From Pseudodesulfovibrio nedwellii (GTDB lineage Bacteria > Desulfobacterota > Desulfovibrionia > Desulfovibrionales > Desulfovibrionaceae): a stretch of 64,000 nt of DNA. The notes under the pieces are model-generated. The model ran no database searches. It worked only from the letters and a program-made list of their open reading frames with translations, and had not been told where the DNA came from. The stretch is from the NCBI RefSeq assembly GCF_027923765.1, contig NZ_AP026709.1, forward strand, positions 1,235,501 to 1,299,500, given 5' to 3'. This document shows, piece by piece, positions 19,425 through 37,453 of the stretch (its first letter is position 1; each line of letters opens with the position of its first letter). The position numbers were made by a program, and so were the translations under genes.

Positions 19425-19486
19425 CAATCAGCACTCACCGTTAGCAAATAGACAATCTCGATACTTTTGATGTTTTTTTCGATACA

Positions 19487-19526: not shown

Positions 19527-19529
19527 AAG

Positions 19530-19712
19530 TTAACGCACGATCAACCTTCCATCGTCATCCCCTTCTTCTTCGATTTCATCCTCCAGTTCATCCACCTCGT
19601 CCTCATCATATTCCACAGAACGAGGTCTTCCATCCTCATCCAGAGCGTAAACGCCAGTTACAGCAAGGATGCCAACGGCTACTCCACCAATGAATGTCCA
19701 AAAGTCTCGCAT
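19530..19712 (-). CDS. Small membrane protein with acidic tail (copy 1)
   Basis: 60 residues: MRDFWTFIGGVAVGILAVTGVYAL is one membrane helix or signal anchor, followed by a very acidic, presumably soluble tail (DEDEVDELEDEIEEEGDDD). A GGAGAAA ribosome site precedes the ATG. A clear paralogue with the same helix and a different acidic tail lies at 34799-34972, which supports both as real genes. Function unknown. It is the last gene of the leftward cassette that starts at 23635. Confidence 0.7.
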   Translation of the reverse strand: MRDFWTFIGGVAVGILAVTGVYALDEDGRPRSVEYDEDEVDELEDEIEEEGDDDGRLIVR

Positions 19713-19726
19713 AGATTTCTCCTATT

Positions 19727-20062
19727 TTAGATTTCAAAAACAGCACCACACCGATTGCAGCGGCACTCGCAAATGACATGACGATCGACGTGTTCGCCAA
19801 CCTGATTGCCGACAGCAGCTCCGGTGAAAAATCCGGTAATTGCTCCGACCAGACTTCCACCAATGGCACCTACGACTGTTCCAACGACTGGAACAACGGA
19901 ACCAATTGCAGCACCAGCAGCGGCTCCTGCGGATGCGCCTGTGTATCCAGCGGCTGCACCGATGGTTCCACCGACAGCTGTTCCAACTTTTTGGCCGGTA
20001 TTAGCTAACACGACATGAGCCGAACTTTCACAATTCGGGCACACAAGAGTCTCTTCACTCAT
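19727..20062 (-). CDS. Glycine-zipper protein between two zinc-ribbon halves
   Basis: 111 residues. The N-terminus MSEETLVCPNCESSAHV and the C-terminus CECRCNRCGAVFEI each carry a Cys pair, together making a plausible split zinc ribbon. Between them is a long glycine/alanine zipper (GGTIGAAAGYTGASAGAAAGAAIGSVVPVVGTVVGAIGGSLVGAITGFFTGAAVG) typical of membrane-inserting or oligomerising hairpins. Sequence shown in parts only; the zipper spans about residues 27-87. Function unknown; its place next to the VWA gene suggests a partner role. Confidence 0.7.
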   Translation of the reverse strand: MSEETLVCPNCESSAHVVLANTGQKVGTAVGGTIGAAAGYTGASAGAAAGAAIGSVVPVVGTVVGAIGGSLVGAITGFFTGAAVGNQVGEHVDRHVICECRCNRCGAVFEI

Positions 20063-20085
20063 ATTTCCCTCGGGATTATTTGTAG

Positions 20086-21675: not shown

Positions 21676-21680
21676 GCTGA

Positions 21681-22649: not shown

Positions 22650-22651
22650 AA

Positions 22652-23635
22652 TTACTCCTTGGTTTCTTGTGGGAATAAACGTTGCGCCAGTTCGTGCAGA
22701 ACGGTCCGGGTTTCGGGACTGGCACGATAGCCAAGAGCACGATCAAGCGCGTAGGTCACAGGTTGGATGCCTTGTCTAGCCAATGGTTGAAAGCGAACAG
22801 TCAGATCAGCCCAACGGATCAGGGTACGAGTCGAGAACGTGACTTCGATGGTCTCGCGATAATTGCCGTCGGCTTCTCCCATAAAGAGCTTACGGACCTC
22901 GTTGGCGTAGTCCACCATCTTGGTCCGCACGTCTTTGGGAAGATTTCCGGCCTTACGATGCAACAACTCCCGTTCCGCCTTCGGGCTCGGGTAGCCGATC
23001 TCGCAGAGCCAAAAGCGATCCATGAAAGCCAAGTTCTGACGAAGCGTCCCCTGGTAGAGACCGGTCTCATCAGTCCCGCCATTGGTGTTGGCCGTGGCTG
23101 CAAATCGAAACAACGGATGCGGCTTAATGACTTCGCTACCATTCTCAGGGATGCACAGCGGATCGCCATCCAGGATACCGTTCAAACCCGCAGCGGTTGC
23201 CGGATCAAGCAGATCGATCTCATTGAGCAGGAAAAGCCCGCCGAATTTCATCGCCAGCGCAAGCGGTCCGTACTGGAAGCTCATATTGGAATCCTCTACA
23301 GTCAGATGTCCGACCATATCCGGGAATTCCAACCGTCCATGACCAGTAATGTCAAAGACAGGATAGTTGAGCTTAGCCGCAAGCTGCTTGATAAGGCTTG
23401 TTTTACCCGAACCGGCAGGCCCGAAGACGTACAACGGATCAGACGAATCCATAAACCAGACCACGGCGTCACGACTGGAGTCATGAAACAGGTATGCAGG
23501 ATTAATGTCAGGGGTGAATGAAGACGGTGATTCAAAGCCATGCACTTTACGCTTGGACTTCCTTCCGCTGAAGATTTCACCTGCGTCATGTTCGATAGTT
23601 TGCAAATCTCGCAGTTCCTTGATGATTTCACTCAT
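22652..23635 (-). CDS. CobS/MoxR-like AAA+ ATPase
   Basis: 327 residues. Walker A is FGPAGSGKTSLIKQ, Walker B is GLFLLNEIDLLDP, sensor 1 is FRFAATANTNG, and an arginine-finger region is STRTLIRWADL. This is a single-ring AAA+ chaperone-like ATPase of the CobS/MoxR group, expected to remodel its VWA partner or a protein bound by it. The ATG at 23635 has an AAAGGAG ribosome site; an upstream in-frame start (23668) would read through the leader hairpin. It heads the cassette ATPase-DUF3150-VWA-zipper-small membrane protein. Confidence 0.88.
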   Translation of the reverse strand: MSEIIKELRDLQTIEHDAGEIFSGRKSKRKVHGFESPSSFTPDINPAYLFHDSSRDAVVWFMDSSDPLYVFGPAGSGKTSLIKQLAAKLNYPVFDITGHGRLEFPDMVGHLTVEDSNMSFQYGPLALAMKFGGLFLLNEIDLLDPATAAGLNGILDGDPLCIPENGSEVIKPHPLFRFAATANTNGGTDETGLYQGTLRQNLAFMDRFWLCEIGYPSPKAERELLHRKAGNLPKDVRTKMVDYANEVRKLFMGEADGNYRETIEVTFSTRTLIRWADLTVRFQPLARQGIQPVTYALDRALGYRASPETRTVLHELAQRLFPQETKE

Positions 23636-23656
23636 GCTTTTCTCCTTTGAAAAAGC

Positions 23657-23688
23657 AGAAGCCCACACCTTGTAAGGCGTGGGCTTCT
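23657..23688 (-). terminator. Leader hairpin before the AAA+ cassette
   Basis: Perfect 10-bp stem AGAAGCCCAC/GTGGGCTTCT with an inner CCT/AGG pair; on the minus strand a T-rich tract and then the ribosome site of the ATPase follow at once. It can end transcription from the gene at 23713 or attenuate the cassette. Confidence 0.75.
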
Positions 23689-23712
23689 CTTTTTGCTATA
23701 TTACGGTTCAAG

Positions 23713-24129
23713 CTACATGGCTGCGATAGATACGATAGTACGGATAACCTCTTCCTGATTTGTTTCCCATGCAATATTTTCCAAAGGCTGAGGGGAATCC
23801 TTAAGGCATGCATCGTATTTTTCCCGATACCCCTCATCCGCTACTTCGTTTACGGCATTAAGGATTTCATAACCTGTCATCTCGTATCCAGACCAATTGC
23901 GGTATGAAGAAACCATCTGCTCAGACACCTCTTCGAGGCTCCCCTGTTTAAGCCTGTCGACGACTTCGTCATACAATGCTTTCATGTGAGTCAAGATGAA
24001 TCGCCCTCGTTCCGTTTTGAGAAATTCACTCTCTTCATCGTTTACGTATTTTTCTGGAGTCATCGCAATGGTCCGGGTACGCTTTCCAAATCGGAATTGA
24101 AAATCAGAAAACCTGTTTACAGGTGCCAT
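23713..24129 (-). CDS. Island hypothetical protein, paralogue pair member B
   Basis: 138 residues, soluble, mostly helical. It shares with its neighbour (24157-24651) the block TIAMTPEKYVNDEESEFL..ERGRFIL and MKALYDE, so the two are tandem duplicates that have diverged. No known family. The C-terminus ends in VIRTIVSIAAM, matching LRIAVSLMYM in the paralogue. The frame is clean and a ribosome site (AAAGGAG) precedes the ATG. Confidence 0.7.
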   Translation of the reverse strand: MAPVNRFSDFQFRFGKRTRTIAMTPEKYVNDEESEFLKTERGRFILTHMKALYDEVVDRLKQGSLEEVSEQMVSSYRNWSGYEMTGYEILNAVNEVADEGYREKYDACLKDSPQPLENIAWETNQEEVIRTIVSIAAM

Positions 24130-24156
24130 ATGTAGTTCTCCTTTCGTAATAACTTA

Positions 24157-24651
24157 TTAGTGGGAACGGCTCATGTACATGAGTGAAACCGCTATTCGTA
24201 ATGCATCAGATGTGTCGAATGTGATGGGATGTCTCCCGACCAACTCAACAAGACTGTCAATATTTTCTTCGTATGCTTCACGGAACTCCGAATCTCCGAC
24301 CTCATAGAGAGCCGCAAGTATTTCGCGACCATATATCTCTGTGCCCGGAGAATTATCGTAATCAGATATAATTTCACTACATACGCTTTCCTGTTGACCT
24401 TCTTTGAATCTGGTTTTGAGTTCTTCAAACAATGCTTTCATTTGAACAAGGATGTATCTCCCCCGATCGGAATCAAGGAAACAACTCTCGTAATCGTTCA
24501 CGAATTTTTCCGGTGACATGGCAACCTCGCGGACATGGTCACCGAATGGTATTTTAAAAATAAGTTCTTCATCTTCCGGGGAATTACCAATGGCATTACC
24601 AACGTTCAAAGATGCATTAGTAAAATTGCTTATAATCTTAAGCGCATTCAT
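24157..24651 (-). CDS. Island hypothetical protein, paralogue pair member A
   Basis: 164 residues. The common core with the next gene is EVAMSPEKFVNDYESCFLDSDRGRYILVQMKALFEE and EIYGREILAALYEVGDSEFREAYEEN (quoted in parts). It has an extra N-terminal segment (MNALKIISNFTNASLNVGNAIGN) missing in its paralogue. No family recognised. AAAGGAG precedes the ATG. Confidence 0.7.
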   Translation of the reverse strand: MNALKIISNFTNASLNVGNAIGNSPEDEELIFKIPFGDHVREVAMSPEKFVNDYESCFLDSDRGRYILVQMKALFEELKTRFKEGQQESVCSEIISDYDNSPGTEIYGREILAALYEVGDSEFREAYEENIDSLVELVGRHPITFDTSDALRIAVSLMYMSRSH

Positions 24652-24963
24652 ATTGTCCTCCTTTGTGCTCCGGTTTGTATTGAGGTAAGATATACATGTT
24701 GTCTATTCCGCAAGCTGGAAAGTTCCACGAGGAATAGTTACGTACTTCGATACCTGTTCATGACAAAATATAACGGGATATACTGAGCGCTGGGTCCACG
24801 TAGAGACGAAAAATCCTCGTCTTCAAAGAAGTAATATATATCTGAAATAGAATGAAATGCAGACCCAATTTATTTTGACGAAGAATATATGATTCGGTTA
24901 TGAATAATTGTAAACATGTCCACCAGATAGTCTGAATTATTTTTCTGTTAAAAAGGAACCACC
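24652..24963. other. Gene-free stretch between divergent operons
   Basis: 312 AT-rich bases. They must hold the promoters of the leftward paralogue pair and of the rightward NERD-helicase gene. I see no conserved repeat or hairpin and no convincing small gene. Confidence 0.5.
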
Positions 24964-26805
24964 ATGTCAAATATATTGCCTGACGATGTCGATTTTTTTC
25001 AAACAGAAGGCGAAGAGCGATTCTATAATTTTCTCAAACACGTCGCTAAGCCAGAAGGCAGATTCCTAAGTTGGTATCTTCCCGACCTCAAAGGCAGAGA
25101 GCCTGATTTCATCATGTTCAGCAAGGATGTGGGGCTAATAATATTTGAAATTAAAGACTGGGCTCTCAACCAGATTATCGAAGCTAACCCACAATATTTC
25201 GTTCTCAATATTGCAGGTAAACCTGAAAAACGAAAAAATCCTCTTTTCCAAGCCAAGGAATATTTTTCTTACTTAATCGAAAAGCTAACAGACGACGGAA
25301 GACTCCTCTCTCGTGAACCTGAACACTACGGGAAACCGAGAATCCCGATAAGTTACGGTGCCGTTTTCCCTAACATCAACAAATTCGAATTCCTTGAGAA
25401 GGGGCTCGGAGACGTTATCCCTGCGGATAAGACACTGTTTTGGGACGACATGCATTCTTCTTCCGATATTTGTACAGATCCGTCCGGCAGGAAATTCTCG
25501 GAAATGCTCAAGCAGATGTTTCCCCCCGTCTTTCTTTTCCAACCAACAGGCAAGGACTGTGAAATTCTTCGAAATGTGATCTTCCCTGTTATTCGTATGA
25601 AACTTCCAAACAGAACAGCAGAAAATGATTACGAAACAGACAAGACGCGCCTTCAGCAGTTGGACTACAATCAAGAAGCAATTTCCAGAAAAATGGACGA
25701 AGGGCACAGGATCGTCACAGGCCCTTCCGGCAGCGGAAAAACGCTCATACTAGTACATCGAGCAGCTCAACTTCTGAAATACAACCCAAAGGTCAAACGA
25801 ATTCTTTTCGTTTGCTACAATCTAACCTTGGCAAACTACATACGCAGACTCTTAGCCGACAAGAAGCTTCCTTTGGGGAAATCAGGAATAGATGTATTCC
25901 CCTTTTACCAGCTTTGCTCTCGTATAGTTCATGAAACAGTGGATAATGATGGTGAAGGAAAGGATTATTATGAACTCATCCTACAAGAAGCGATGGAGCG
26001 ATGCCAAGAATGCGATCTTCAATATGATGCCATTTTGATAGATGAAGGTCAGGACTTTTCCGATGACATGCTAAAGGTCGTCATGGGACTGTTGTCACCA
26101 ACTTCAAAAAGCCTGACGATTGCCATGGACAAAGGACAACGAATTTATCAACGTAGGATGTCTTGGAAAGAAATTGGCATTGATGCAAGCGGACGAACTC
26201 ACCATTTGGACTGGGTATACAGAAACACAGAAGAAATAGCTGGTTGGGCTGCCCGATTCATGGGAGAAGCTGTCAATCAAAATCACAATAGCACTCAGCA
26301 CGAACTACTCCCCAATCTCTTGGGACATCATGGACCAGCACCTTCAATGCCTCTTTGTGGCGACTTTAATGAAACATCTTCAACCATCATCCAGAAAGTG
26401 AAAGAATGGTTGGGAAAAGGATATCCGGCATCTGAAATCGCAGTGCTTTACACAACGAGCAAACCGACAACCATTCCAGATTTACATATTCCCACCCATA
26501 TCAAAGATGCACTGGAAGAAAACGGGATTCTCTGCCAGTGGATTTCAGAGGACGCAAGAAGCAAAGAGGCCTACGACGTAACTACGGACAAAGTATCCAT
26601 TTCAACCATCCACAGCGTCAAAGGTCTCGATTATGCTTGTGTTCTATTAGTAGGTGTTGATTTCATTGATCTTGATCGCATAGGTAAAGAGCAGGCACGG
26701 AATCTAATTTATGTCGCCATGACTCGAGCACGGACCGAACTAGTAATCCCTTGGGTTCAAGAAACGAAGCTGACGTCCCGGCTCCAAAAGGCTCTACAAA
26801 TTTAG
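24964..26805 (+). CDS. NERD-domain UvrD/RecB-type DNA helicase
   Basis: 613 residues. The N-terminal NERD nuclease-related domain (residues 1-200) shows GREPDFIMF and LIIFEIKDW, the D...ExK core of a PD-(D/E)XK fold. It is followed by a superfamily 1 helicase: Walker A GPSGSGKTLILVHRAA, motif II ILIDEGQDFSDDM, motif V STIHSVKGLDYACVLL and motif VI NLIYVAMTRARTELV. Such fusions act in DNA repair or in defence; the role here is inferred. AAAGGAACC precedes the ATG. Strongly AT-rich compared with the host genes. A terminator follows, so it is its own unit. Confidence 0.88.
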   Translation: MSNILPDDVDFFQTEGEERFYNFLKHVAKPEGRFLSWYLPDLKGREPDFIMFSKDVGLIIFEIKDWALNQIIEANPQYFVLNIAGKPEKRKNPLFQAKEYFSYLIEKLTDDGRLLSREPEHYGKPRIPISYGAVFPNINKFEFLEKGLGDVIPADKTLFWDDMHSSSDICTDPSGRKFSEMLKQMFPPVFLFQPTGKDCEILRNVIFPVIRMKLPNRTAENDYETDKTRLQQLDYNQEAISRKMDEGHRIVTGPSGSGKTLILVHRAAQLLKYNPKVKRILFVCYNLTLANYIRRLLADKKLPLGKSGIDVFPFYQLCSRIVHETVDNDGEGKDYYELILQEAMERCQECDLQYDAILIDEGQDFSDDMLKVVMGLLSPTSKSLTIAMDKGQRIYQRRMSWKEIGIDASGRTHHLDWVYRNTEEIAGWAARFMGEAVNQNHNSTQHELLPNLLGHHGPAPSMPLCGDFNETSSTIIQKVKEWLGKGYPASEIAVLYTTSKPTTIPDLHIPTHIKDALEENGILCQWISEDARSKEAYDVTTDKVSISTIHSVKGLDYACVLLVGVDFIDLDRIGKEQARNLIYVAMTRARTELVIPWVQETKLTSRLQKALQI

Positions 26806-26848
26806 ACGTTTTTCCCTCACTTACTCCAGTGTGTTGCCGAAAAGTTAT

Positions 26849-26886
26849 GGTGTGACTTCTTCTAATTGAGGTCACACCCTTTCTTT
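26849..26886 (+). terminator. Terminator after the NERD-helicase gene
   Basis: 8-bp stem GGTGTGAC/GTCACACC with a 14-base loop followed by a T-rich run. Confidence 0.8.
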
Positions 26887-26944
26887 ATCCCATTGCGCGG
26901 TTCAATTATTTTGTCTGCAACTTTCCTTCTCTTGGAAAAGTACG

Positions 26945-27646
26945 GTGTTATCTCTTTTCCTCATGCACATTCTTAAGTTTAAAGAGATCGCCCCCTTATG
27001 GCCCAATTGGGCTTGGCTAGCATTTGGATTTATCCCCATCTATTTTTGGAAGCATCATTCCTTCTCTTCCTGTATGCGTACACCACTTTCGCGAAACTTA
27101 AGAGCCTTAGTTGTCATAACAGTTTTGAGTTTTACACTCATCCTTCTTTTCTGCAGGCATTCTACAGAAAAGCACCGAAGTCACGCTATACAAGAGTCTC
27201 CAATATCACACCCACTTTCCCAAAGAGATCGAGAATTCGTGATCAGGTGGCTTCAATCCATGAGTAACAAATTTGAAGCTACCAACATGACATTCTTCAG
27301 TCTCCCGATTTACCGCAATGAAGCCAATGGGAGTCTTTTGGGCTTTATCGCATTTAAAAAACAAAAAATCATTTTCGCTTCAGGTGTTAACCAAGTTCAA
27401 GAAGCAACATATGGAATCTTCAGCCACTTCATCTACGCCAATGACGAAATTTACCTAGAAGACTGTCTCACGACAACAGGGCGCTACGACGACCAAACTG
27501 ATACATTTAAATTCCAGTCAGGCAGTAAGAATTATACTCTGTGCAATATAGATGCTGGTGCGCAAGGGAAGTATAGGCGGATAGCAACATGTTTATGCGA
27601 ATTGAAAAATGGGGAATTTAGGGTGAACCAAATTCTTTCCAATTAA
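26945..27646 (+). CDS. Hypothetical protein with two N-terminal membrane helices
   Basis: 233 residues. Two membrane segments at the N-terminus (APLWPNWAWLAFGFIPIYFW and ALVVITVLSFTLILLF) are followed by a soluble domain of about 165 residues that I do not recognise (DREFVIRWLQSMSNKFEATNM..., ending GEFRVNQILSN). The start is unsure because the ATGs at 26964 and 26945 region lack a strong ribosome site. It sits between the NERD-helicase and the WYL regulator, all on the plus strand, and may belong to the same defence-like cluster. Confidence 0.55.
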   Translation: MLSLFLMHILKFKEIAPLWPNWAWLAFGFIPIYFWKHHSFSSCMRTPLSRNLRALVVITVLSFTLILLFCRHSTEKHRSHAIQESPISHPLSQRDREFVIRWLQSMSNKFEATNMTFFSLPIYRNEANGSLLGFIAFKKQKIIFASGVNQVQEATYGIFSHFIYANDEIYLEDCLTTTGRYDDQTDTFKFQSGSKNYTLCNIDAGAQGKYRRIATCLCELKNGEFRVNQILSN

Positions 27647-27827
27647 CCTAGGACTTATCCTCAACATTCACAGTCCATCAAATACGATTTGCGGAAAAGA
27701 CTAATGAAACAACTGTTAGAAAAATGCGACCAACTCTATTGATTTTAATATGTTTTCATGGTCAAAAAAACAACTCACTCGACATCTATTCATATTTGGA
27801 TTTGTCAATCTGACACAGGAGCTTAAC

Positions 27828-28760
27828 GTGGTTAATAAAAACTCATTGGATTCACATGGAACAAAGCTCCTGCGCCTATTCCAAAAACTTATGCTTGAAG
27901 GAAGACGGCACTATCAAAGCGACCTTGCAGAATATCTTGATTGCTCACCGCAAACAGTTATGCGTCTTATCGGAGAGATAGAAGGGACTGTAGGCACTGG
28001 TCTTGAAATTGGGACGGAAAATCGCCGCCGATACTACCAACTCAAATCTCTCGCATCTAGACGTACACTGGGGTTAGAATTCGAGGAACTTCGTTACCTC
28101 GCCATCTGCCATGACTTGGCATCGCCTCATCTGCCTCAACAAATTTCAGCAAGAGTCGAAAAAACGATATTTGAGCTTTCAACCCTCATGGCAGATCCTG
28201 ATTACGCTCGCAGAAATGACGCACAACAGCAGCAGATAGGATTCAAGTCCAAAGGATACATAGATTACACCGGGCATTTCAAACATATCGAAAGCCTCAT
28301 AGACGCTGCTCAAAAACGCAACATCTGCCTTGTTGACTACAAAGCCAACTCCCAAAAAGAAGCAAAAAACTATTTTTACGCTCCTGGTCGCATCATCACC
28401 ATGAATGGCGCTCTTTACGTGCGCGGCCATAAGGTATCAAAAGGGCTAGCAGAAAAGGAACGAGCAACGACTTTCGCCATTCACAGAATCCAAGATGTCA
28501 CACAGACAGATAAAACTTTCAATTTTGATGCGACAATCGACGATGAGGGCTCATTCGGCATGAGTTGGCACGAACCCAAACGCTTCCGCATCGCCTTTGA
28601 CGAGAAGACTGCAGACTACGTACGAGAACGGACATGGAGCGAAGACCAGAAAATTGAAGACCAAGAAGACGGTGGACTTATTTTGGAATTAACGACGGTC
28701 AGTGAACGAGAACTCATGGCCTGGGTGTGGAGTTTTGGAAAATTGGCGACGCTATTATAA
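27828..28760 (+). CDS. WYL-domain transcriptional regulator
   Basis: 310 residues from the GTG at 27828, chosen because CAGGAG lies 6 bases upstream; the longer frame to 27750 has no ribosome site. The N-terminus has a winged helix (LLRLFQKLMLEGRRHYQSDLAEYL and SPQTVMRLIGEIE). The C-terminus has a WYL domain: NFYAPGRIITMNGALYVRGH and a WCX-like end (MAWVWSFGKLATLL). WYL proteins are common repressors of phage-defence operons, sensing ligand or nucleic acid. It stops 13 bases before the dynamin gene and so is probably the regulator of that operon. Confidence 0.85.
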   Translation: MVNKNSLDSHGTKLLRLFQKLMLEGRRHYQSDLAEYLDCSPQTVMRLIGEIEGTVGTGLEIGTENRRRYYQLKSLASRRTLGLEFEELRYLAICHDLASPHLPQQISARVEKTIFELSTLMADPDYARRNDAQQQQIGFKSKGYIDYTGHFKHIESLIDAAQKRNICLVDYKANSQKEAKNYFYAPGRIITMNGALYVRGHKVSKGLAEKERATTFAIHRIQDVTQTDKTFNFDATIDDEGSFGMSWHEPKRFRIAFDEKTADYVRERTWSEDQKIEDQEDGGLILELTTVSERELMAWVWSFGKLATLL

Positions 28761-28773
28761 ATAGAGGTAACAT

Positions 28774-31194
28774 ATGAACCAACGAGTAGAAGATATGCAT
28801 GAGCAAAACATCGAATTAATGAGGAAAGAGGCGATTCGCCTCATTGAATGGGAGATTGAGTTACTTGAGGAGCTTAGAGATAAAAAAATTGTCACTGAGG
28901 CTCAACAAGAAAATGCGAAAGCAACATTCACTCTTCCGAAAATAATCAAATACATCGAAGTGCTGCAAGGAGAACAGCACAAGCTAAAAAATCTCGAAAT
29001 AACTTTGGCGATTGTCGGCACAATGAAAGCTGGCAAGTCGACGACGATTAATGCGATTGTCGGTTCTGAGATTCTCCCCAGTCGGAATAGGCCTATGACA
29101 GCCTTGCCGACTCTCATCAAACATAAGCCAGGACAAACCATCCCTGTCCTCCGGTTCCCTAACAAAAAACCGGCACATGATTTTTGCTGTAGTATCGCAG
29201 CGAAAGACAATCGTGAAGAACTTGAAATCAAAGACCCTGATCTTGCAAAAACAATGGATGATATTTGTAACGGTTGGAAAATCAAGGAAGAGTACACAGG
29301 GGCAGAGGAAATTTTTCAATTCCTTCGTCAGCTAAATGACCTCGTCAGAGTCTCAAATATTACCGGTATCCCCTTTCCCTATGATGAGTATAACAAAATC
29401 CAAGAATTGCCGGAGATTGAAGTCCAATTTGAAACACTAAGAGATTCAAACAATCTTGGTGAATTCATACTTCTTGATACTCCAGGTCCGAATGAGGCTG
29501 GCATGAAAGCACTCTCTAGGATGATGGAGGATCAACTTCAAAAGGCTTCTGCCGTTTTGACTGTTATGGACTTTACTCAGTTGAAGTCAGAAGCTGATGA
29601 CTCCGTCCGAAACATTCTGAAAAGTATTTCTGCTTACACGAAAGGGCGTTTATTCGCGTTAGTAAACAAGTATGACCAAAAAGATCGAAACAGCATCGAT
29701 TTAGATTCCATGAAGGAATTAATCTCAGAATCACTCATGGACGGGGAAATAGATAAGGATAAAATTTATCCTGTCTCTTCCAAATATGGCTACCTGGCCA
29801 ATTGTGCACTCAGTGCGGTCAATGAGGCGCAAAAAACGACGACTGCACTCGCGCTAACTGAAACTCCATGGCATGTGGATTTTGCTGACCTGGCTTTTAG
29901 AAGATGGAAGAAAGAAGATCTGGCCGACCTGGAAAAAGTTAGATCGGCTGCCATCGACTTATGGGAAGACTCTCTTTTTGCCGCCCCTCTAGAAGAAGTC
30001 ATCCAAAAGTCGCATGCCGATGCTGCCTCGATTGCCTTAAATTCCGCAGCGAGTAAGCTTTCAAAAATAATAGGAGAGTTTGAAAAACACTTGGCCGTAC
30101 GTGGTCGCTGCATTGTTGCAGATGTGAAGACAATTCAGACTATGATTGATGCAATGCAAAATGACATTGATCAAGTGGATCAACTTAAGGCCGCTGCTGA
30201 GGAGTCCAAAAAAACATCTATCTCTCAATTGACCAACGAATGCACTTCCTTGTACAAGGAAGGGGAGTGCAAAACAGTTGAGGTCATTCGCAATTATTTT
30301 CAAACAGGAAAAGCCGAAGAAGAAAAAAGGAGCAAAGAACGTAAGCAGGAACAACAAAAGGCAAAAACGGGTTTTGCTAGTTCTATTGAAAAGTTAAGAA
30401 GCAAACTTAGTGGAAACAAAGAAAGACATATTTCAGGTCCCAATTTTGATCCCAAAGTACCTAAAATTCGTTTTGAAAAAGACGAGAAGCATGAAGCAGT
30501 GAAATTTGTTGGAGATGTCTCTGAGGCATTGGAAGGTGTCTTGAACAAAACGATGGAAGCGGTAAACAAAACTTTAGACGAAGTCATCCGTGACTTCGAC
30601 GAGAATATGACCAAAGGAATTGCGGAGCCTTCCAATATGTTGCTGAGCGATTTACAGGAAAGGATGAATAAGGAGGGCGTAAAAATATCATTAAGTTTGC
30701 CCAATCTTGACAGGCTTAACTTGCCATTCAGCGGAAAGCAGCTTGTCGCGAAAGTTGAATCCAAAACGGAAAAAGATACAAAACCAGTACCTCGAGAGTC
30801 TACCGGAGGCTCGGTTAAAAGATTTTTTGGAAGTCTTTTGGGTCAAGGCGATTGGGGCTACGACGATGTAACTTATGATAAAGATTTCTACATTGTAGAC
30901 ATAAAAAGACTAGAGAAACAAGCTGCCGAAGAAATTAAAAAGGCATTTTCCAACCTAACGTCCACTGGGATTAAGAAAACAATCGAAAAACCGCTCGCCA
31001 AGAGCTTGAATGACTTTTTTATCGAGCTTTCCGAGATTGTAGAAAACATTCGAGGCGACCTGCTTCAAGGCCTTGAAGACAGTCAAGAGAAGAGTAGTGA
31101 AAAACAACGACTGCTCAAAGAGATCCAACAGTTGCAGGAAGTCACTCCGGAATGCAAGGAAGACACAGAAAAGCTGAGCGAAAGGCTTCAATAA
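28774..31194 (+). CDS. CrfC/RdcA-like dynamin-family GTPase
   Basis: 806 residues. The GTPase domain matches E. coli CrfC (YjdA, RdcA): LAIVGTMKAGKSTTINAIVG (P-loop, 79-98), RNRPMTALPTLI (G2), LLDTPGPNEAG (G3) and VNKYDQKDRNS (G4). Long helical, dynamin-like stalk regions follow, with a very basic lysine-rich patch around 505-550 and a C-terminal amphipathic region that could touch membrane. E. coli CrfC binds the sliding clamp for nucleoid cohesion, and as RdcA works with RdcB on a diguanylate cyclase. The next gene encodes an RdcB-like protein, joined by a TAATG overlap. Probably membrane-remodelling (inference). Confidence 0.88.
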   Translation: MNQRVEDMHEQNIELMRKEAIRLIEWEIELLEELRDKKIVTEAQQENAKATFTLPKIIKYIEVLQGEQHKLKNLEITLAIVGTMKAGKSTTINAIVGSEILPSRNRPMTALPTLIKHKPGQTIPVLRFPNKKPAHDFCCSIAAKDNREELEIKDPDLAKTMDDICNGWKIKEEYTGAEEIFQFLRQLNDLVRVSNITGIPFPYDEYNKIQELPEIEVQFETLRDSNNLGEFILLDTPGPNEAGMKALSRMMEDQLQKASAVLTVMDFTQLKSEADDSVRNILKSISAYTKGRLFALVNKYDQKDRNSIDLDSMKELISESLMDGEIDKDKIYPVSSKYGYLANCALSAVNEAQKTTTALALTETPWHVDFADLAFRRWKKEDLADLEKVRSAAIDLWEDSLFAAPLEEVIQKSHADAASIALNSAASKLSKIIGEFEKHLAVRGRCIVADVKTIQTMIDAMQNDIDQVDQLKAAAEESKKTSISQLTNECTSLYKEGECKTVEVIRNYFQTGKAEEEKRSKERKQEQQKAKTGFASSIEKLRSKLSGNKERHISGPNFDPKVPKIRFEKDEKHEAVKFVGDVSEALEGVLNKTMEAVNKTLDEVIRDFDENMTKGIAEPSNMLLSDLQERMNKEGVKISLSLPNLDRLNLPFSGKQLVAKVESKTEKDTKPVPRESTGGSVKRFFGSLLGQGDWGYDDVTYDKDFYIVDIKRLEKQAAEEIKKAFSNLTSTGIKKTIEKPLAKSLNDFFIELSEIVENIRGDLLQGLEDSQEKSSEKQRLLKEIQQLQEVTPECKEDTEKLSERLQ

Positions 31195-32108
31195 TGAGCT
31201 GTCTCACCCCGATATTGAAAGAGGCGGGCTTGGCGGACACGATAGACGTGATGCCTGGCCTGCACCAGAAAATCGTTCTTGATGTGGTTAACAGCATTAA
31301 CGTTGCGCAAGATGTTGAACGGGTCCAGAGCAACCGTAGTAGGATACGTCATCGGCTTATGGATTCGATTACAGGAGCTGGGGGCAGACGGCAAAACGCG
31401 ATTAATGAAAATCACACCGAAGCCATACGCGGACTTTTTGACTTTGCTGTTGAACTGACGAAGTCAATTGAGCTCACCAACTCTGTGACGACTCAAATAA
31501 ACAAACAACTTGTTGAGGTTCACAAAAACATCAAAGACCTAGCCCTAGGCGTCTGTGAAATTAATGACAGGCTTGAACAGTTTATAGGCTGGAGCGAGCA
31601 ACGAATTGGTCAACTTGAAGAAAGACTTAAAGAGACTTCCATTGAACATTCTGCTCACACTCATCTTGAACGGGCTTTCGCCAAATGGGCTGCCGGACGT
31701 TTAAATCAGTATTCACCGATAACTCAACTTTATCTGGTTATTGACGATTTGTACTGGGGAGATTTTGGCGAATTGTGCAAAAGATACCCGGACTCACAGG
31801 CCTGCAAGAACAACATAGGGCATGCTCAGGACAAGTTGCTAATCCAACTCCATACAATTATGGAAACCGAAAGCCAAATCGAACTACCAAAGTGGGTTAC
31901 AGGTAGTCACAACATCCCTCCAAAAGAGCAACAGTCGCTTAGTTACATGGGAGACTGGGCAACTAAACACCTGCATTTTCCTCGAACTGCGACAAATATT
32001 TCTGGGTCGCCGACGGTAGGTGTTCCCCTTCAATTTGATTGCGCATTCGCTGTGACTAGGATGTGGAAGCAATCCATGGAGATACGCTTGAATGACAAAA
32101 TCAACTAA
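31194..32108 (+). CDS. RdcB (YjcZ)-like partner of the dynamin GTPase
   Basis: 304 residues from the ATG at 31194, which overlaps the dynamin stop (TAATG). It is a helical, partly coiled-coil protein (NSVTTQINKQLVEVHKNIKDLALGVCEINDRLEQFIGWSEQRIG, quoted loosely) with a conserved C-terminal block HLERAFAKWAAGRLNQYSPITQLYLVIDDLYWGDFG, as in the diguanylate cyclase regulator RdcB family. In E. coli RdcA and RdcB jointly activate DgcE; no GGDEF gene lies in this window. The patatin gene starts inside its last 17 bases. Confidence 0.72.
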   Translation: MSCLTPILKEAGLADTIDVMPGLHQKIVLDVVNSINVAQDVERVQSNRSRIRHRLMDSITGAGGRRQNAINENHTEAIRGLFDFAVELTKSIELTNSVTTQINKQLVEVHKNIKDLALGVCEINDRLEQFIGWSEQRIGQLEERLKETSIEHSAHTHLERAFAKWAAGRLNQYSPITQLYLVIDDLYWGDFGELCKRYPDSQACKNNIGHAQDKLLIQLHTIMETESQIELPKWVTGSHNIPPKEQQSLSYMGDWATKHLHFPRTATNISGSPTVGVPLQFDCAFAVTRMWKQSMEIRLNDKIN

Positions 32109-33195
32109 ATTTGGTCTAGTTCTCTCCGGCGGAGGTGCAAAAGGCGCTTACCAAGCAGGAGTTATAAAGGCTCTCGCCGAGTTAAACATCACTATTGATA
32201 TTGTATCAGGAGCGAGCATCGGAGCTTTGAACGGAGCCATGGTTGCCTGTGCTCCAGATTTAGAGGAAGCAGCCGTTCGTTTAAAAGAGCTCTGGAAAAA
32301 GATAGGAGAAGACTCGCCGCTAACTCTTAACAAGTCTGCGCTTTTGAAGCTCTTACTTCCACTCACTTCGATAGTTGGAAATACAAGCCCATTAGGAGCT
32401 GTGTCCAATTTCTTAGCTTTCTTTCCTAGCGCAGATCGCGAAGTCGACTTGCTCAGCAACTCTCCCATTAAGAACATTCTAGAACAAAACATTAGTGTCG
32501 AATTGCTCAAAAAGGGACTTCCTCTTTATGTTTCTGTTTATCCCAGTTCTGGTAATCTCCAGACTCTTATTGAAGCACTGGCTGCATCGATGAGTGTTGT
32601 GGATACGGACAAATCGCATTTTTATCATGTGCAAAGCCTACCACATGAAGAGCAGATAAAAGCACTTTTAGCGTCATCTGCTCTCCCTGGCCTCCTTCCT
32701 GCACAAAAGATCAATGATCAACAGTACCATGATGGCGGAATCGGCGGCTGGAGGTCCACACAAGGAAATACGCCGATTACTCCTCTAATTGAAGCCGGGT
32801 GTACCCACGCCATAGTAACCCACCTTCGAGACGGCTCTATGTGGCGACGGCAAGATTTCCCAGAATTAAATGTGATAGAAATACGCCCCCGAAGCAGCAT
32901 CCAACGCGGAAGTGTCATCCCAGATGTGCTGGGATTTGATCCAAGCAAAGTTTCTTCGTGGATTGAACAAGGATATGAAGACACTCATTTAAGCTTGGCC
33001 CCAATGATAAAGGGAACAAATGCGATTAACTCTCTGACTGCTTCTCAACAGGCTCTTCTTGACTCTCACCAAGCTACTCAGGAACCTTCTGCAGCCAAAA
33101 ATAGTGCAATGGACAAATTTAAACGCCGTGTTGGGGCGTCTAAAGCTAAAGGCCTTCATCCCTTGCAAGGGAGTACAAAGACTCTTGAAGAGTAG
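32092..33195 (+). CDS. Patatin-like phospholipase
   Basis: 367 residues. It starts with the patatin oxyanion loop LVLSGGGAKGAYQAGVIKAL, then the nucleophile elbow GASIGALNGA (GxSxG) and the catalytic Asp motif YHDGGIGGW. No signal peptide or membrane helix, so a cytoplasmic lipase that attacks the inner leaflet is likely. The C-terminal 40 residues are basic and low in structure (KFKRRVGASKAKG). The ATG lies 17 bases inside the RdcB-like gene, so expression is coupled. Patatin effectors kill the cell in several defence systems (CapV in CBASS), which suggests an effector role here (inference). Confidence 0.9.
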   Translation: MTKSTKFGLVLSGGGAKGAYQAGVIKALAELNITIDIVSGASIGALNGAMVACAPDLEEAAVRLKELWKKIGEDSPLTLNKSALLKLLLPLTSIVGNTSPLGAVSNFLAFFPSADREVDLLSNSPIKNILEQNISVELLKKGLPLYVSVYPSSGNLQTLIEALAASMSVVDTDKSHFYHVQSLPHEEQIKALLASSALPGLLPAQKINDQQYHDGGIGGWRSTQGNTPITPLIEAGCTHAIVTHLRDGSMWRRQDFPELNVIEIRPRSSIQRGSVIPDVLGFDPSKVSSWIEQGYEDTHLSLAPMIKGTNAINSLTASQQALLDSHQATQEPSAAKNSAMDKFKRRVGASKAKGLHPLQGSTKTLEE

Positions 33196-33213
33196 CTGGT
33201 GATTGATAGACCA

Positions 33214-33399
33214 TTAGTAGAACAAAAGCCCGATATCTTTACTTCCGCATTTCGGGCACTGTAGTTCCTGTTGCTTTTCCTTAGCAGCGGGCCAAGGGAA
33301 GGTTTTCCTAAAGATTTTTCTTAAGAGGTTGCTTTGTAAAAAAAGATGACCACATTCTCGGCAAGCATAGTCCGAAGCACCTGGCGGTTTAATAGGCAT
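33214..33399 (-). CDS. Small zinc-ribbon protein
   Basis: 61 residues from the ATG at 33399: MPIKPPGASDYACRECGHLF, a basic helix (LLRKIFRKTFPW), then LQCPKCGSKDIG. Two CxxC pairs make a zinc ribbon. GGGG lies about 9 bases upstream of the ATG, and the longer frame to 33465 overlaps the preceding gene. Convergent with the patatin gene. Confidence 0.65.
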   Translation of the reverse strand: MPIKPPGASDYACRECGHLFLQSNLLRKIFRKTFPWPAAKEKQQELQCPKCGSKDIGLLFY

Positions 33400-33403
33400 A
33401 AAA

Positions 33404-34054
33404 TTACCCCATACGGACACTATGGTCCATTCTCTGGAGAGATTCTTGGTCGACTTCAAGCCCAACAGGCGGCTTCACTCCTTGAAAAGCAATAGGGCCA
33501 CGCACAAGAGTGTTCTCAGGCAATCGCGAAAGACACATTGGCCGCTTGCAAACCACTACATCTGGCCACATATCGCCTTTGCAAGTCAAAACGAGACGCC
33601 CATCATTTATGTCGGCTTCAACCTTGTGACCATAAGCCATACGAGCCGCTTCACACCACTCTTTCAAAGTCAAAGACTCTCCTTCATCGACCCTACGCAG
33701 CAACTCCGGCACCTGTATAAATGTATATCCACTAAAATGCGCCTTTAATTTTGGAACAGGCTCTATTTTAAACGCACCTTTTCTATTTTCGTCATAGCTG
33801 TAATGGACACATTCTACGGCCTGTACCCCATTGGAAATCTTGCACAGACAACCTCTTTCATCAACGAATAGTGTCCCGGTACAAATGTTTTTCGGAATCT
33901 CGTAAAGAGGTTGACTCTCCTCAGAATACCGGCCCACATATAGCTCTAGGTCTACATATATTTGCCGAGTCGAATATTTCCAATGCACTACTACGTCTTC
34001 ACTCTTGGCCAATTTCGCCATAAAGGCTTCATCGGCTGAAGTCGGATTACACAT
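33404..34054 (-). CDS. Island hypothetical protein, second paralogue pair, member B
   Basis: 216 residues, soluble. Its C-terminal half resembles that of the upstream gene: SLTLKEWCEAARMAYGHKVEADINDGRLVLTCKG against SLTREQWVKLFSEVFTGYKVSLDRDHRIVIDSSKG. The N-terminal strand pattern (HWKYSTRQIYVDLELYVG) also matches. No known family. An AAAGGAG site precedes the ATG, which lies 8 bases inside the upstream gene. Confidence 0.7.
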   Translation of the reverse strand: MCNPTSADEAFMAKLAKSEDVVVHWKYSTRQIYVDLELYVGRYSEESQPLYEIPKNICTGTLFVDERGCLCKISNGVQAVECVHYSYDENRKGAFKIEPVPKLKAHFSGYTFIQVPELLRRVDEGESLTLKEWCEAARMAYGHKVEADINDGRLVLTCKGDMWPDVVVCKRPMCLSRLPENTLVRGPIAFQGVKPPVGLEVDQESLQRMDHSVRMG

Positions 34055-34709
34055 AAAATCCTAGCTCCTTTGAAATGTTAATATCCTTACATAGTAGGCT
34101 GTCCAAATTCATGGGAGCAATCCCTGCAAATTCAATACGGTGGAGAACTGTCAACATCTCAGGGATACAAATTAACTCGTCTGGCCTATCGATAACCCTA
34201 AACCCATGACCTCCTTTTGAAGAATCAATGACAATTCTATGATCTCTATCAAGGCTAACTTTGTAGCCAGTAAACACTTCACTAAAAAGTTTTACCCATT
34301 GTTCGCGCGTAAGTGAGGTTGGATTCAATCTGGCTTGTGCAATCAAAGGATGGACATAAGTGAATTTAGTTTTCCACTCGCCTCGAACCTGTCCTTCGCG
34401 CTCAGGGAAACAACTAAAATGATGAAGACTGTCAATGCTTATTCCAGCGGGGAGATCAAAGGCACTAGTCCACTCCGTCAAAACAAAATCCGATACGCGG
34501 CAGTCTGACGGAAGACAGTTAAACAGGAGTTTATCAACTGGAGCCCATTCTCCCCAATAAATAGTTTGGATAAAAAGCTTATCGACTTTGTAATCCCAAA
34601 AGCAGTGAATCCCTAGTTTTTTCAGTTCGCGAACCAGAAGATGTCTGTCAGAGCTGTCCCCTTTAGTTTGCACGTCCAATTCTTGGTTAAGGTAGTCCGA
34701 AATAAGCAT
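34047..34709 (-). CDS. Island hypothetical protein, second paralogue pair, member A
   Basis: 220 residues, soluble, beta-rich in the first half (KLGIHCFWDYKVDKLFIQTIYWGEWAP). Related by divergent tandem duplication to the next gene, with which it overlaps by 8 bases. No family recognised. The two genes and the zinc-ribbon gene probably form one leftward operon. Confidence 0.7.
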   Translation of the reverse strand: MLISDYLNQELDVQTKGDSSDRHLLVRELKKLGIHCFWDYKVDKLFIQTIYWGEWAPVDKLLFNCLPSDCRVSDFVLTEWTSAFDLPAGISIDSLHHFSCFPEREGQVRGEWKTKFTYVHPLIAQARLNPTSLTREQWVKLFSEVFTGYKVSLDRDHRIVIDSSKGGHGFRVIDRPDELICIPEMLTVLHRIEFAGIAPMNLDSLLCKDINISKELGFYV

Positions 34710-34758
34710 GTTGTGGTAAGCCTCACAATGGTTGCTATATATTTAAGCTTTGTTCCCT

Positions 34759-34790
34759 GTAGTGACGGAAGATTAAGCCTCCGTCACTAC
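34759..34790. terminator. Hairpin between small membrane-protein gene and hypothetical operon
   Basis: Perfect 11-bp stem (GTAGTGACGGA and its complement) with a 10-base loop. No T run, so terminator function is weakly supported. Confidence 0.5.
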
Positions 34791-34798
34791 GGTTGAAA

Positions 34799-34972
34799 CT
34801 AGCACGCCGCTTCTTCCGGCTCCTCTGTGCTGTGTTTAACATTGGAATCGCATTCATCATCGTCATCACAATCGACAAAGGAAAGGCTCTCAGCCTCTTC
34901 TAATGCATACACGCCTGTCACAGCCAATACGCCAACAGCAACGCCACCGAAAAAAGTCAATAAGTCACGCAT
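34799..34972 (-). CDS. Small membrane protein with acidic Cys-containing tail (copy 2)
   Basis: 57 residues, too short for many gene finders: MRDLLTFFGGVAVGVLAVTG then VYALEEAESLSFVDCDDDDE and a C-terminal EEPEEAAC. The first 24 residues match copy 1 at 19530-19712 almost exactly, while the acidic tail differs and has three Cys. GGAGAAA lies directly before the ATG, as in copy 1. The strict conservation of the helix and loss of similarity after it suggest the helix is the functional part. Confidence 0.65.
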   Translation of the reverse strand: MRDLLTFFGGVAVGVLAVTGVYALEEAESLSFVDCDDDDECDSNVKHSTEEPEEAAC

Positions 34973-35107
34973 AATTTCTCCTTGTTTGAATTACATGGTG
35001 GGAAATGGAATTCCCCTCCTCATTTAGTTCAAGATAATTGAGAACTATTCCAAGAAATGGAAACTTGAGAGAAAATTTGTATGGGGGATGAAAAAATAAT
35101 ATACGAA

Positions 35108-35148
35108 CGTCAGTGGCTTATTCTGGGATTTAGAATAAGCCACTGACG
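35108..35148 (-). terminator. Long perfect hairpin after the Cas4-like nuclease gene
   Basis: 17-bp perfect stem with a 7-base loop, 8 bases past the stop codon at 35156; on the minus strand a T-rich tract follows about 10 bases later. Confidence 0.75.
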
Positions 35149-35155
35149 GCGGAGC

Positions 35156-36376
35156 CTAAGCTACTGACTTTAGAATTTTATTGATTTTCCCAATATACAA
35201 GCGCTCATGAGGCTTGCCAGTCTTCTCACATTGCTCCAAAGCATCTTGAGCCGTAAGGTCGTCGATCAACTCCGTCAAAGTATCCATCACTAGAGATCGA
35301 TCCAATGTCTTTCGACCTGAAACCGTTGCAACCCGAAAACGATGGCCTCCAACGGATACCCAGTCCTGAGATCCAATCGAACGATACGTCTGTCTGATAC
35401 GCTCTTCAGCCTCAGCAATACGCTTTTCTATGGTTGTTTTGCTCTCCTTGAGTATGGCGAGTTCTTCCAGCTCAAGCCCACAAGCAGAGTCCGATGGGAT
35501 GTTCACATCCTGGAACTTCGGACAGTCCTTGTTGACGTCACACCAATCGCATAACGGGTGAAAGCCTCGGCAGTAATCGAGATCGTTTAACTCCAAAGTA
35601 CCGGAACGGACATCTTCCATCGTTCGCCAAATTCCTACCGCTGTTTGTAAGCAGGCCTCCAGCATGCTCTTCTCCGGTTGATACGGCCCAAACGGTTTAA
35701 CCTTGGCCATGGATATGGATATGGAAAGTACCCAGCCTTCAATGTCTACATCCTCAGGGGATTCTGGGAGATCCACGCCGAAGATCGAACGCACAGCTTG
35801 TGGGAATGTGGCCTTTTTAACTCCTGCTTCCGTTACGGAAAAGCACGGCTTGTTCCAATAGGATTTCAACAATCCCACCTGGCCATAGAGTTGCGCTTCA
35901 TACGACGCATACAACGACTCCGGGATACGCTCATTACTCTTGAGTTCCAGAATCCGTACAGCAGGACGATCTCCGCCCCAAACCAGGGTAAAATCCAAGT
36001 GCGCCTTCATAGGCACCCCACTGTGTTCAACGGAGATCTCAAGCTGTGGGATCAATTTAACGCCAGCAGCTTGCAGAGCCTTTTGAACTCCATCTTCCTG
36101 CCAATGGCCACGTTGTAGGATGATCTGGCGACCGAGAACGTGGGCCAAGTCACCCTGAGCGAGCTCACCTATGGCGGCTGAGACGGGAATGGCAGATGCT
36201 CCAAGCTTACTCGCTACGGCTGATCGCATACATTCCATCCCTTTTCCGATGTCAGACATACCGATGTACTGACTACGATCTCCAAGCTCACTGGCTGTTT
36301 TATACTCAGCGTGTGCCAGAAGCCCTTGAGTCAACAATCGCAACAGACCTTGTGCCTTGATGTCATCACGCTGCAT
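35156..36376 (-). CDS. Cas4/RecB-type PD-(D/E)XK exonuclease with Fe-S cysteines
   Basis: About 406 residues from the ATG at 36376, placed 7 bases after GGTGGAGG; the open frame runs further upstream but only over the ERF gene. The nuclease core is AHLDFTLVW and VRILELKSNERIP. A cysteine near the N-terminus (GMECMRSA) and C-x6-C-x2-C-x5-C near the end (YCRGFHPLCDWCDVNKDC) look like the Fe-S cluster layout of Cas4/AddB nucleases. It probably resects DNA ends for the ERF annealing protein encoded just upstream, as Exo does for Bet in SXT-type elements. Confidence 0.75.
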   Translation of the reverse strand: MQRDDIKAQGLLRLLTQGLLAHAEYKTASELGDRSQYIGMSDIGKGMECMRSAVASKLGASAIPVSAAIGELAQGDLAHVLGRQIILQRGHWQEDGVQKALQAAGVKLIPQLEISVEHSGVPMKAHLDFTLVWGGDRPAVRILELKSNERIPESLYASYEAQLYGQVGLLKSYWNKPCFSVTEAGVKKATFPQAVRSIFGVDLPESPEDVDIEGWVLSISISMAKVKPFGPYQPEKSMLEACLQTAVGIWRTMEDVRSGTLELNDLDYCRGFHPLCDWCDVNKDCPKFQDVNIPSDSACGLELEELAILKESKTTIEKRIAEAEERIRQTYRSIGSQDWVSVGGHRFRVATVSGRKTLDRSLVMDTLTELIDDLTAQDALEQCEKTGKPHERLYIGKINKILKSVA

Positions 36377-37046
36377 CTGCATACCTCCACCAAACTTTAC
36401 GAGTGCCATCCCAACGGAAACCGGCTTTACGAAGGAATTCCTTCTTGGGATGAGTATCACCAGTTGCCAAGACACATTGCTTGCCGTCATTGGCTGTACC
36501 TTTTCGATACTGAACGCCATCAAGACGTGGTAGATTAACTGCCCCAGGGGCATTACCCTTGGCCATCGATAATGGCTGTGCAGCGGGTGAATTGTTCCCG
36601 CAGTTCCGGGACTGGAAAACTCCATTTTGCGGTTCTCTCTGCTGAGAGGCCATTTCACCATCATCATCGTTCTCCGTCACAATCCCGATCAACGCGGATA
36701 ATCCATATCGACGTGCATAGGTCATAGCCGAGCCATATCCTTGTGGATCATTTTTGGGTAACGGCATGGTCAACAATGAGGCTTGCCATTGACCTGTTTC
36801 AGCATGGACGATCTTGGTTACAAGACCGAGCTGGTTCAATTCGACAGAAACCGGATACTGGGTCAGCCAAATACCGTGCTGAAGAAGAGCATCACGACAT
36901 GCATTCATGACCGAGTGAAGCGTTGCATAGCGACTGTTGGTAAAAGTGTTTTCAGCATCCTTGAGCGCAGGTGACAACGTCTGCTGCACCTGGATCATAG
37001 CCTCTACCAATTCCGTAATTTCAGGGGAACACATCTGGGATTCCAT
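36366..37046 (-). CDS. ERF-family single-strand annealing recombinase
   Basis: 226 residues. The ERF signature is NSRYATLHSVMNACRDALLQHGI and YGSAMTYARRYGLSALIGIVTENDDDG. Members promote RecA-independent annealing in phages and mobile elements. The C-terminal 60 residues form a separate small domain (GKQCVLATGDTHPKKEFLRKAGFRWDG...). Its last 11 bases overlap the start of the nuclease gene, so the two are coupled. It has a leader hairpin just upstream of its ribosome site. Confidence 0.85.
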   Translation of the reverse strand: MESQMCSPEITELVEAMIQVQQTLSPALKDAENTFTNSRYATLHSVMNACRDALLQHGIWLTQYPVSVELNQLGLVTKIVHAETGQWQASLLTMPLPKNDPQGYGSAMTYARRYGLSALIGIVTENDDDGEMASQQREPQNGVFQSRNCGNNSPAAQPLSMAKGNAPGAVNLPRLDGVQYRKGTANDGKQCVLATGDTHPKKEFLRKAGFRWDGTRKVWWRYADAA

Positions 37047-37453
37047 ATTACCTCCTTAAAAAGAGAAAACCCCAGTACTGCTTTTCGCGGTACTGGAGAC
37101 AATTAGTTAATTTGAAGCTAAAAAGGATTAGTCTTCACTGAGGTAATATATGTCTTAAATATTTTGAGAAGCACAGTGACAATGGGATATTGGGACAACA
37201 GCAGATTTATAAGTACATGCCATCTAACCCAGCACGCTCCTTCAAAGCATACACCACTCTTGTCAGGCTATGGTTTACTTTTCCCCACAACGAAGATTCT
37301 TTGCAGTTTTCATCATGAAATGAATATGTTGGAATATGTTGCCGATTTGTGGCAATCTCCCCGCAAGATGTCGAGAACGTTGTTCCATATTCTGGAATGA
37401 TGGTGCGTTATCTACCCTTGAAGATCGTAGAACGCAGAAGGAAAACGTGCTTC
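37047..37453. other. Gene-free stretch between divergent recombination operons
   Basis: About 400 AT-rich bases between the ERF operon (leftward) and the AddB-like gene (rightward). Apart from the leader hairpin I see no gene or repeat; both promoters should lie here. Confidence 0.5.
37072..37096 (-). promoter_or_regulatory. Leader hairpin before the ERF gene
   Basis: 10-bp stem (CCAGTACTGC/GCGGTACTGG, one G-U) then a T/C-rich tract and the AAGGAGG ribosome site on the minus strand. No minus-strand gene lies upstream, so this is a leader structure rather than the end of a transcript. Confidence 0.6.

Follow-up and report, generated by a model that had tools for sequence, protein, structure and literature searches.

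In Escherichia coli K-12, the dynamin-like GTPase RdcA (CrfC) binds the protein RdcB and activates the diguanylate cyclase DgcE via the MASE1 domain of the latter, with dimerisation as the probable route; nucleotide-free RdcA was proposed to be active and GTP to be inhibitory (excerpts of PMC6510439). Excerpts of PMC13031359 and PMC8669469 present RdcAB as DgcE activators only. Patatins are known as defence effectors, e.g., in the CBASS-like (cyclic oligonucleotide-based antiphage signalling system) DS-2, whose components are a phospholipase, cGAS and a diadenylate cyclase (excerpts of PMC13092281). Mobile or pathogenicity islands also carry the dynamin-like GTPase of LeoABC; there LeoA was proposed to cooperate with another dynamin that is divided between LeoB and LeoC (excerpts of PMC4159319). 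Here we describe a locus of Pseudodesulfovibrio nedwellii in which a WYL regulator, an RdcA/CrfC-like dynamin, an RdcB-like partner and a patatin-like phospholipase form one overlapping operon. It lies in a window of 64,000 bases, comprising bases 1235501-1299500 of the 3.76-Mb single-contig genome. The trio of dynamin, RdcB and patatin is a mobile, accessory module recurring in far-apart taxa, and with a probability of about 0.5 it acts as a GTPase-controlled phospholipase defence, most likely an abortive one against phages or invading DNA. The parts are known; the type of switch is new, in a module that resembles known defences with a patatin effector. An earlier sequence-only reading had come to RdcA/RdcB as sensor and switch of a membrane-attacking patatin and knew of no described system with this set. 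A description of the trio was likewise not found in the open-licence PMC literature as far as its text was available (e.g., PMC13182975, PMC10121019); subscription papers may hold one.

Gene organisation and protein families

The four plus-strand genes at 27750-33195 are all open and follow each other as WYL regulator, dynamin, RdcB/YjcZ and patatin, with junction gaps of 13, -1 (via TAATG) and -17 bases. A second reading of the open reading frames and Pfam searches bore out the identities, positions and gaps given by the sequence-only reading; its overlapping operon also stood, as two junctions of the four-gene set do overlap. WYL, WCX, Dynamin_N, YjcZ and Patatin all scored over the curated Pfam cut-offs (Table 1), and the N-terminal helix-turn-helix of the WYL protein was a weak match under the Pfam cut-off. 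Chance clustering of the genes is implausible, because the order dynamin-RdcB-patatin returns in distant genomes. A consensus scan for promoters and terminators near the operon gave no more than shuffled sequences, and the inverted repeats flanking it, two short imperfect pairs, carry no weight.

The dynamin belongs to the dynamin superfamily (Dynamin_N 55.4 bits versus a cut-off of 27) and possesses the P-loop K88, the G2 residue T109, the G3 residue D235 and the G4 motif N298-K299-x-D301. K88, T109, D235, N298 and D301 were invariant in 14 aligned rows, K299 nearly so. The full dynamin P-loop described before was thus confirmed: K88 and T109 correspond to K82 and T103 of K-12 RdcA and were identical in 14 of 14 rows. 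The P-loop lysine and the G2 threonine of K-12 RdcA are residues that were mutated experimentally (excerpts of PMC6510439). The CrfC model NF007368 (NCBIfam) spanned residues 8-804 with 481.2 bits, well under its equivalog cut-off of 1146 bits. By sequence, the protein is a homologue of CrfC/RdcA, yet a different orthologue from CrfC/RdcA itself. The sequence-only reading had described the likeness for the GTPase domain; the 14-row alignment covers the full length, with 31 % identity to K-12 RdcA. In the predicted model (predicted local distance difference test, pLDDT, 79), the top structural matches in a Foldseek search of the PDB were BDLP, IniA and SynDLP. The best of them was BDLP (2j69; E 8.5e-13, template modelling (TM) score 0.26), and whole-chain TM-scores were low (0.22-0.30).

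RdcB scored 100.5 bits against PF13990 (YjcZ/RdcB; cut-off 27) and had a profile match of 4.4e-19 to K-12 RdcB. Its model, of moderate confidence (pLDDT 76, predicted TM-score 0.49), is mostly helical, including a helix of about 105 residues (62-166). A comparison of the model to the PDB gave no fold match at E <= 0.001, and no sequence relative was found among solved structures. The long predicted helix and the missing match to a solved fold would fit a role as scaffold or tether.

The patatin is by sequence a patatin phospholipase: PF01734 reached 107.8 bits (cut-off 27.7), and the motifs GGGAKGAY, GASIG (Ser42) and DGG (Asp214) supply the GxSxG serine and the DG[GA] aspartate. The catalytic residues had been reported as intact, and this holds for the Ser42/Asp214 dyad, invariant in 18 aligned rows. 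The nearest sequence relative with a solved structure is PlpD (5fqu, 9.3e-18). PlpD is a secreted autotransporter-type lipase. In the protein described here the patatin domain alone is over the cut-off, and its gene sits in an RdcAB operon.

Matches of the patatin to CBASS effectors were weak (PADLOC 5.4e-8; NF041079 29.7 bits versus a cut-off of 200). Patatin effectors of CBASS are proteins of the CapV family. The family is the same, and so is the proposed output, a self-harming defence; CBASS loci, however, have a cyclase, whereas the window has a dynamin and RdcB, and a Pfam scan of 24 island proteins, small open reading frames excluded, detected no cyclase. Membership in CBASS was rejected on the missing cyclase and the low NF041079 score. 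For the same reasons we give very little credence to a CBASS-like mode, in which a nucleotide signal instead of the GTPase would trigger the patatin and of which the weak effector matches might be a trace. Affiliation to the LeoABC type was rejected as well, with one Dynamin_N protein in the operon, beside RdcB and a lipase, versus two tandem dynamins. The sequence-only reading had counted LeoA as part of a phage defence system; this was not confirmed, the word phage being absent from the available text of the LeoABC paper (PMC4159319).

Recurrence of the trio on mobile DNA

The order dynamin-RdcB-patatin recurs in Enterobacteriaceae, Acinetobacter, Actinobacillus, Amphritea, Sulfurospirillum, Cytobacillus, Nostoc and Anabaena. 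A plasmid search with RdcB matched 43 records. Among the 40 matches listed, classified by identity to the query, 31 belonged to the island type (>=25 %) and the other 9 to the K-12 type (<24 %). All 31 island-type plasmids listed, Nostoc among them, had a patatin in the same record, the K-12 type in none of 9 cases. Trio order was seen in the plasmid loci inspected of E. coli (pB39), Nostoc and K. oxytoca, and in a K. pneumoniae plasmid locus the dynamin was truncated beside an insertion sequence (IS). A scan of genome_contigs with a patatin profile, the partner genes being sought with profiles of their own, yielded at least 80 loci. Ten of the 80 loci listed had the triplet, one (L017) had RdcB and patatin at a contig edge, and 69 had the patatin alone. 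The triplets stem from Amphritea (L011), Anabaena (L012 and L019), Cytobacillus (L013), Acinetobacter (L014) and metagenome-assembled genomes (MAGs) of Methylococcaceae (L008), Syntrophomonadaceae (L009, dynamin at the contig edge), Sulfurospirillum (L016), Actinobacillus (L021) and Binatota (L071). Nine of the 12 closest patatins listed (E <= 1e-43) were accompanied by RdcB.

In E. coli, the triplet DNA of pB39 was present to 80 % or more in 2426 of 5426 complete genomes, a count of DNA coverage irrespective of gene intactness, as one listed copy had an internal IS. This DNA was chromosomal at 3384 of 3385 places. Three copies inspected, pB39 included, all lay within CbtA/YeeS-type islands, and one adjoined the autotransporter gene cah. 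A nucleotide search of E. coli with RdcB-patatin of the window found nothing, which was to be expected given protein identities of 24 and 43 %.

Some loci varied around the RdcB-patatin pair. In Aliarcobacter (L007, 6224-7909), unknown proteins of 161 and 397 amino acids occupy the place expected for the dynamin; the larger one, 5' of RdcB, was not convincing as a dynamin piece (probability 5.6). In a genome of the same family as the window (G157:C230, L133, 870-7022), the genes after RdcB and patatin encode proteins of about 355 and 224 amino acids and a P-loop GTPase of 789 amino acids. This GTPase matched the dynamin profile weakly (6e-5 in a five-sequence search) and appeared Der-like in the PDB search; perhaps a different GTPase was swapped onto the same pair. 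A second GTPase precedes the dynamin directly in Actinobacillus (L021, 2204-3364; MMR_HSR1 with DUF697), and one of the E. coli copies (L117, 7911-8783) has a 'GTPase family protein' in this place. In Nostocales (L017, 4347-7112), RdcB-patatin lies near a protein that fuses a TnsA-like nuclease to an rve/Mu-type transposase, a possible Tn7-like carrier.

The operon of the window resides on an integrative island between two attachment sites (Table 1). In the same-species genome G314 the site is empty: bases 1-5797 of its locus L105 equal window bases 13553-19349 and bases 5767-12828 equal 56938-64000, both at 99.6 %. These two flank matches share 31 bases, so the flanks are directly joined and the island is missing. 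Within the island, the G+C content is lower around the operon. Among 98 relatives and among 395 genomes of the phylum, YjcZ was detected once each, in the window's own genome; among 348 genomes of the class it was detected in 2.

Such mobile elements may also be kept by the genes they carry, and dynamin-RdcB could restrain a toxic patatin in an island-stabilising or toxin-antitoxin-like manner. The presence on plasmids and an integrative island, the toxic effector class and the overlapping genes agree with this explanation. We consider it improbable, since the proteins are large and unlike small labile antitoxins, the E. coli copies are nearly all chromosomal, and close patatins exist without the dynamin-RdcB pair.

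Defence genes and the WYL regulator

Several copies have known defence genes as neighbours. In Amphritea a Zorya II set lies directly upstream of the dynamin (ZorA 3.3e-188, ZorB 1.6e-98, ZorE 2e-128), with 57 bases between the ZorE stop and the dynamin ATG. The Aliarcobacter RdcB-patatin pair has a Shedu SduA (1.8e-90) nearby, 1.9 kb further upstream of the two unknown proteins, and in Nostoc two Mokosh-like helicase genes follow the trio on the opposite strand. In 89 neighbour genes of 12 RdcB-patatin loci (10 with dynamin; window and Enterobacteriaceae loci left out), 48 PADLOC models matched at 1e-10, a number that counts models, with several per gene possible and WYL models included, and of which the first 25 were named. 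Thirteen randomly drawn patatin-only loci, from other taxa than the trio loci, served as controls and gave 3 PADLOC models in 88 genes and 4 in 62 genes. The enrichment of defence genes around the trio is strong but not calibrated.

In Acinetobacter (L014) a WYL homologue precedes the dynamin by 86 bases, and in Actinobacillus (L021) one lies about 2.4 kb upstream. Together with the window this makes 3 of the 20 loci that were scanned, several of them cut off near the operon. The WYL protein as part of the set stood for the window and seems optional across loci, and a fixed quartet with WYL was set aside. Where present, the WYL protein probably controls expression.

A membrane-remodelling or envelope-stress module is the explanation that we regard as unlikely but ahead of the other alternatives: dynamin and RdcB would deform or tether the membrane, and the patatin would trim lipids in repair, vesicle release or lipid turnover, with phages playing no part. 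The dynamin is BDLP-like, patatins are lipid hydrolases, and LeoABC dynamins have been linked to vesicle secretion in E. coli (excerpts of PMC4159319). On the other hand, the patchy accessory distribution and the defence neighbours are unusual for housekeeping functions, and K-12 RdcA was described as soluble and cytoplasmic (excerpts of PMC6510439).

Relation to the core RdcAB pair of Escherichia coli

With RdcA and RdcB of E. coli the locus shares the homologous dynamin and partner, their order and the GTPase motif residues. The E. coli proteins differ as a core pair that lacks a patatin and acts on the MASE1 domain of DgcE. In K-12, rdcA-rdcB is followed by proP, and 5354 of 5426 E. coli genomes hold DNA of the core pair. 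YjcZ matched in 8 of 295 genomes of an Enterobacterales sample: six dynamin-RdcB pairs without patatin, the Actinobacillus triplet and a weak match with an internal stop and neither partner. A Gammaproteobacteria sample had a match in 1 of 369 genomes, the centre genome. A rare linkage of patatin to RdcAB had been named by the sequence-only reading as speaking against it. Among mobile copies the linkage is not rare, as the island-type plasmids demonstrate; for the core Enterobacterales pair it is absent, in K-12 and in 6 core loci of the 295 genomes.

MASE1 (PF05231) had no match in the window genome (G000), with E. coli and three other genomes positive as controls. Among seven RdcB-patatin genomes, MASE1 was unmatched in four (the window's, G157, Actinobacillus and Cytobacillus, the last three being drafts or MAGs) and present in three (Acinetobacter, Amphritea and Anabaena). 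Membership of the window locus as RdcAB regulator of a MASE1 diguanylate cyclase was rejected on this basis. More broadly, the trio might regulate cyclic di-GMP by activating a diguanylate cyclase as in K-12, with the patatin as passenger; that dynamin and partner are homologues of K-12 RdcA and RdcB, and that three of the genomes are MASE1-positive, would suit this, but the four genomes without a match and the patatin linkage kept in far-apart taxa render it most improbable.

Among 21 dynamins placed on a tree, the 7 core proteins without a patatin clustered together (100/100). Their sister group was formed by the island dynamins of E. coli and Klebsiella (99/98), and the remaining patatin-linked proteins branched outside. 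With a midpoint root this indicates that core RdcAB may have arisen by one patatin loss, which is suggestive only, given a provisional root, long branches and the retrieval of the patatin-linked rows via patatin or RdcB. Tentatively, and with less confidence than we place in the defence function itself, RdcA/RdcB could be a mobile GTPase cassette for activating clients in general, the ancestral client having been a killing phospholipase. The dynamin-patatin form would then serve anti-phage immunity, and E. coli RdcAB would have been domesticated from it, losing the patatin and gaining DgcE as new client.

Proposed function

For the defence function we propose that the RdcA-like dynamin and RdcB constitute a nucleotide-controlled switch on the co-translated patatin. 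As MASE1 is unmatched in the genomes of the window, G157, Actinobacillus and Cytobacillus, the patatin would be the natural client, and we infer that dynamin-RdcB acts on it. Carried over from K-12, nucleotide-free RdcA bound to RdcB would cluster and so activate its client. Infection might lower GTP or disturb the membrane; dynamin-RdcB would then release or cluster the patatin, which would cut membrane lipids, and the cell would stop before phage release. The patatin switch in a mobile, defence-like locus, as advanced by the sequence-only reading, is supported by the recurrence, the context and the missing K-12 target.

Several observations weigh against a defence function, in addition to the mode of counting PADLOC models, the taxa of the controls and the MASE1 proteins in three trio genomes. 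None of the PADLOC 2.0.0 models matched RdcB (best E 0.043) or, beyond 1.5e-4, the dynamin. We know of no account of CbtA/YeeS-type islands as purely defence islands. No dynamin of the RdcA family was recognisable beside RdcB-patatin in Aliarcobacter L007 and in L133 of G157. Three of the 12 closest patatins listed, from the MAGs L010, L015 and L018, had neither RdcB in the locus, which for L015 comprises just 0.65 kb of upstream sequence, nor YjcZ genome-wide. Searches of 50,697 phage records with RdcB and the dynamin, and of viral_contigs with the dynamin, gave no match; on these searches, which did not include the patatin, a phage-borne module was rejected. A phage, lipase or interaction assay of the trio was not found in the open-licence PMC literature, nor was a phage or lipase phenotype found reported.

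Other features of the island

A NERD and UvrD-type helicase gene stands upstream of the operon and is counted here as context. The island also holds a DUF927 protein and an ERF protein, and further gene sets are listed in Table 1. The split MmeI-like type IIG gene is a decayed defence gene in the same island.

Table 1 Features of the operon and the surrounding island in window coordinates
Feature	Position	Strand	Evidence
Integrative island with operon, 37.6 kb	19346..56964		Site empty in same-species genome G314
Attachment site 1, 3' end of tRNA-Ala (tRNA 19269-19344)	19319..19349		Repeat match
VWA/CobT-like, DUF3150 and AAA_5/CbbQ genes in a row; MoxR-VWA-like set	20086-23668	-	
NERD + UvrD-type helicase, upstream context	24964..26805	+	NERD 3.3e-7, UvrD_C 1.1e-13, PADLOC C3a187 1e-79
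WYL/WCX-domain transcriptional regulator	27750 (ATG) or 27828 (GTG) to 28760	+	PF25583 3e-10, PF13280 3.1e-5
RdcA/CrfC-like dynamin GTPase, 806 amino acids	28774..31194	+	Dynamin_N 9.6e-15, NF007368 5.7e-144
RdcB/YjcZ-like partner, 304 amino acids	31194..32108	+	PF13990 1.4e-28
Patatin-like phospholipase, 367 amino acids	32092..33195	+	PF01734 1e-30
AddB-like PD-(D/E)XK nuclease + UvrD/PDDEXK helicase pair; ERF recombinase gene adjoining	37349-43220		
MmeI-like type IIG restriction-modification gene in two pieces around an rve-type transposase gene	44391-48490		
Tyrosine integrase adjoining attachment site 2	55525..56793	-	PF00589 3.4e-27
Attachment site 2	56938..56968		First 27 bases identical to site 1

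Conclusions

The triplet DNA in 2426 of 5426 complete E. coli genomes makes the proposed function testable at once in the best-known laboratory host. If the defence function holds, the coupling of a dynamin GTPase switch to a phospholipase would be a defence architecture caught by no PADLOC 2.0.0 model, and RdcB would gain a second client together with an evolutionary origin. The question why a dynamin controls a cyclase in the biofilm signalling of E. coli would turn into the question how an immune switch was tamed. Should the domestication of RdcAB be true, nearly half of the E. coli strains would carry the immune form alongside its tamed relative.

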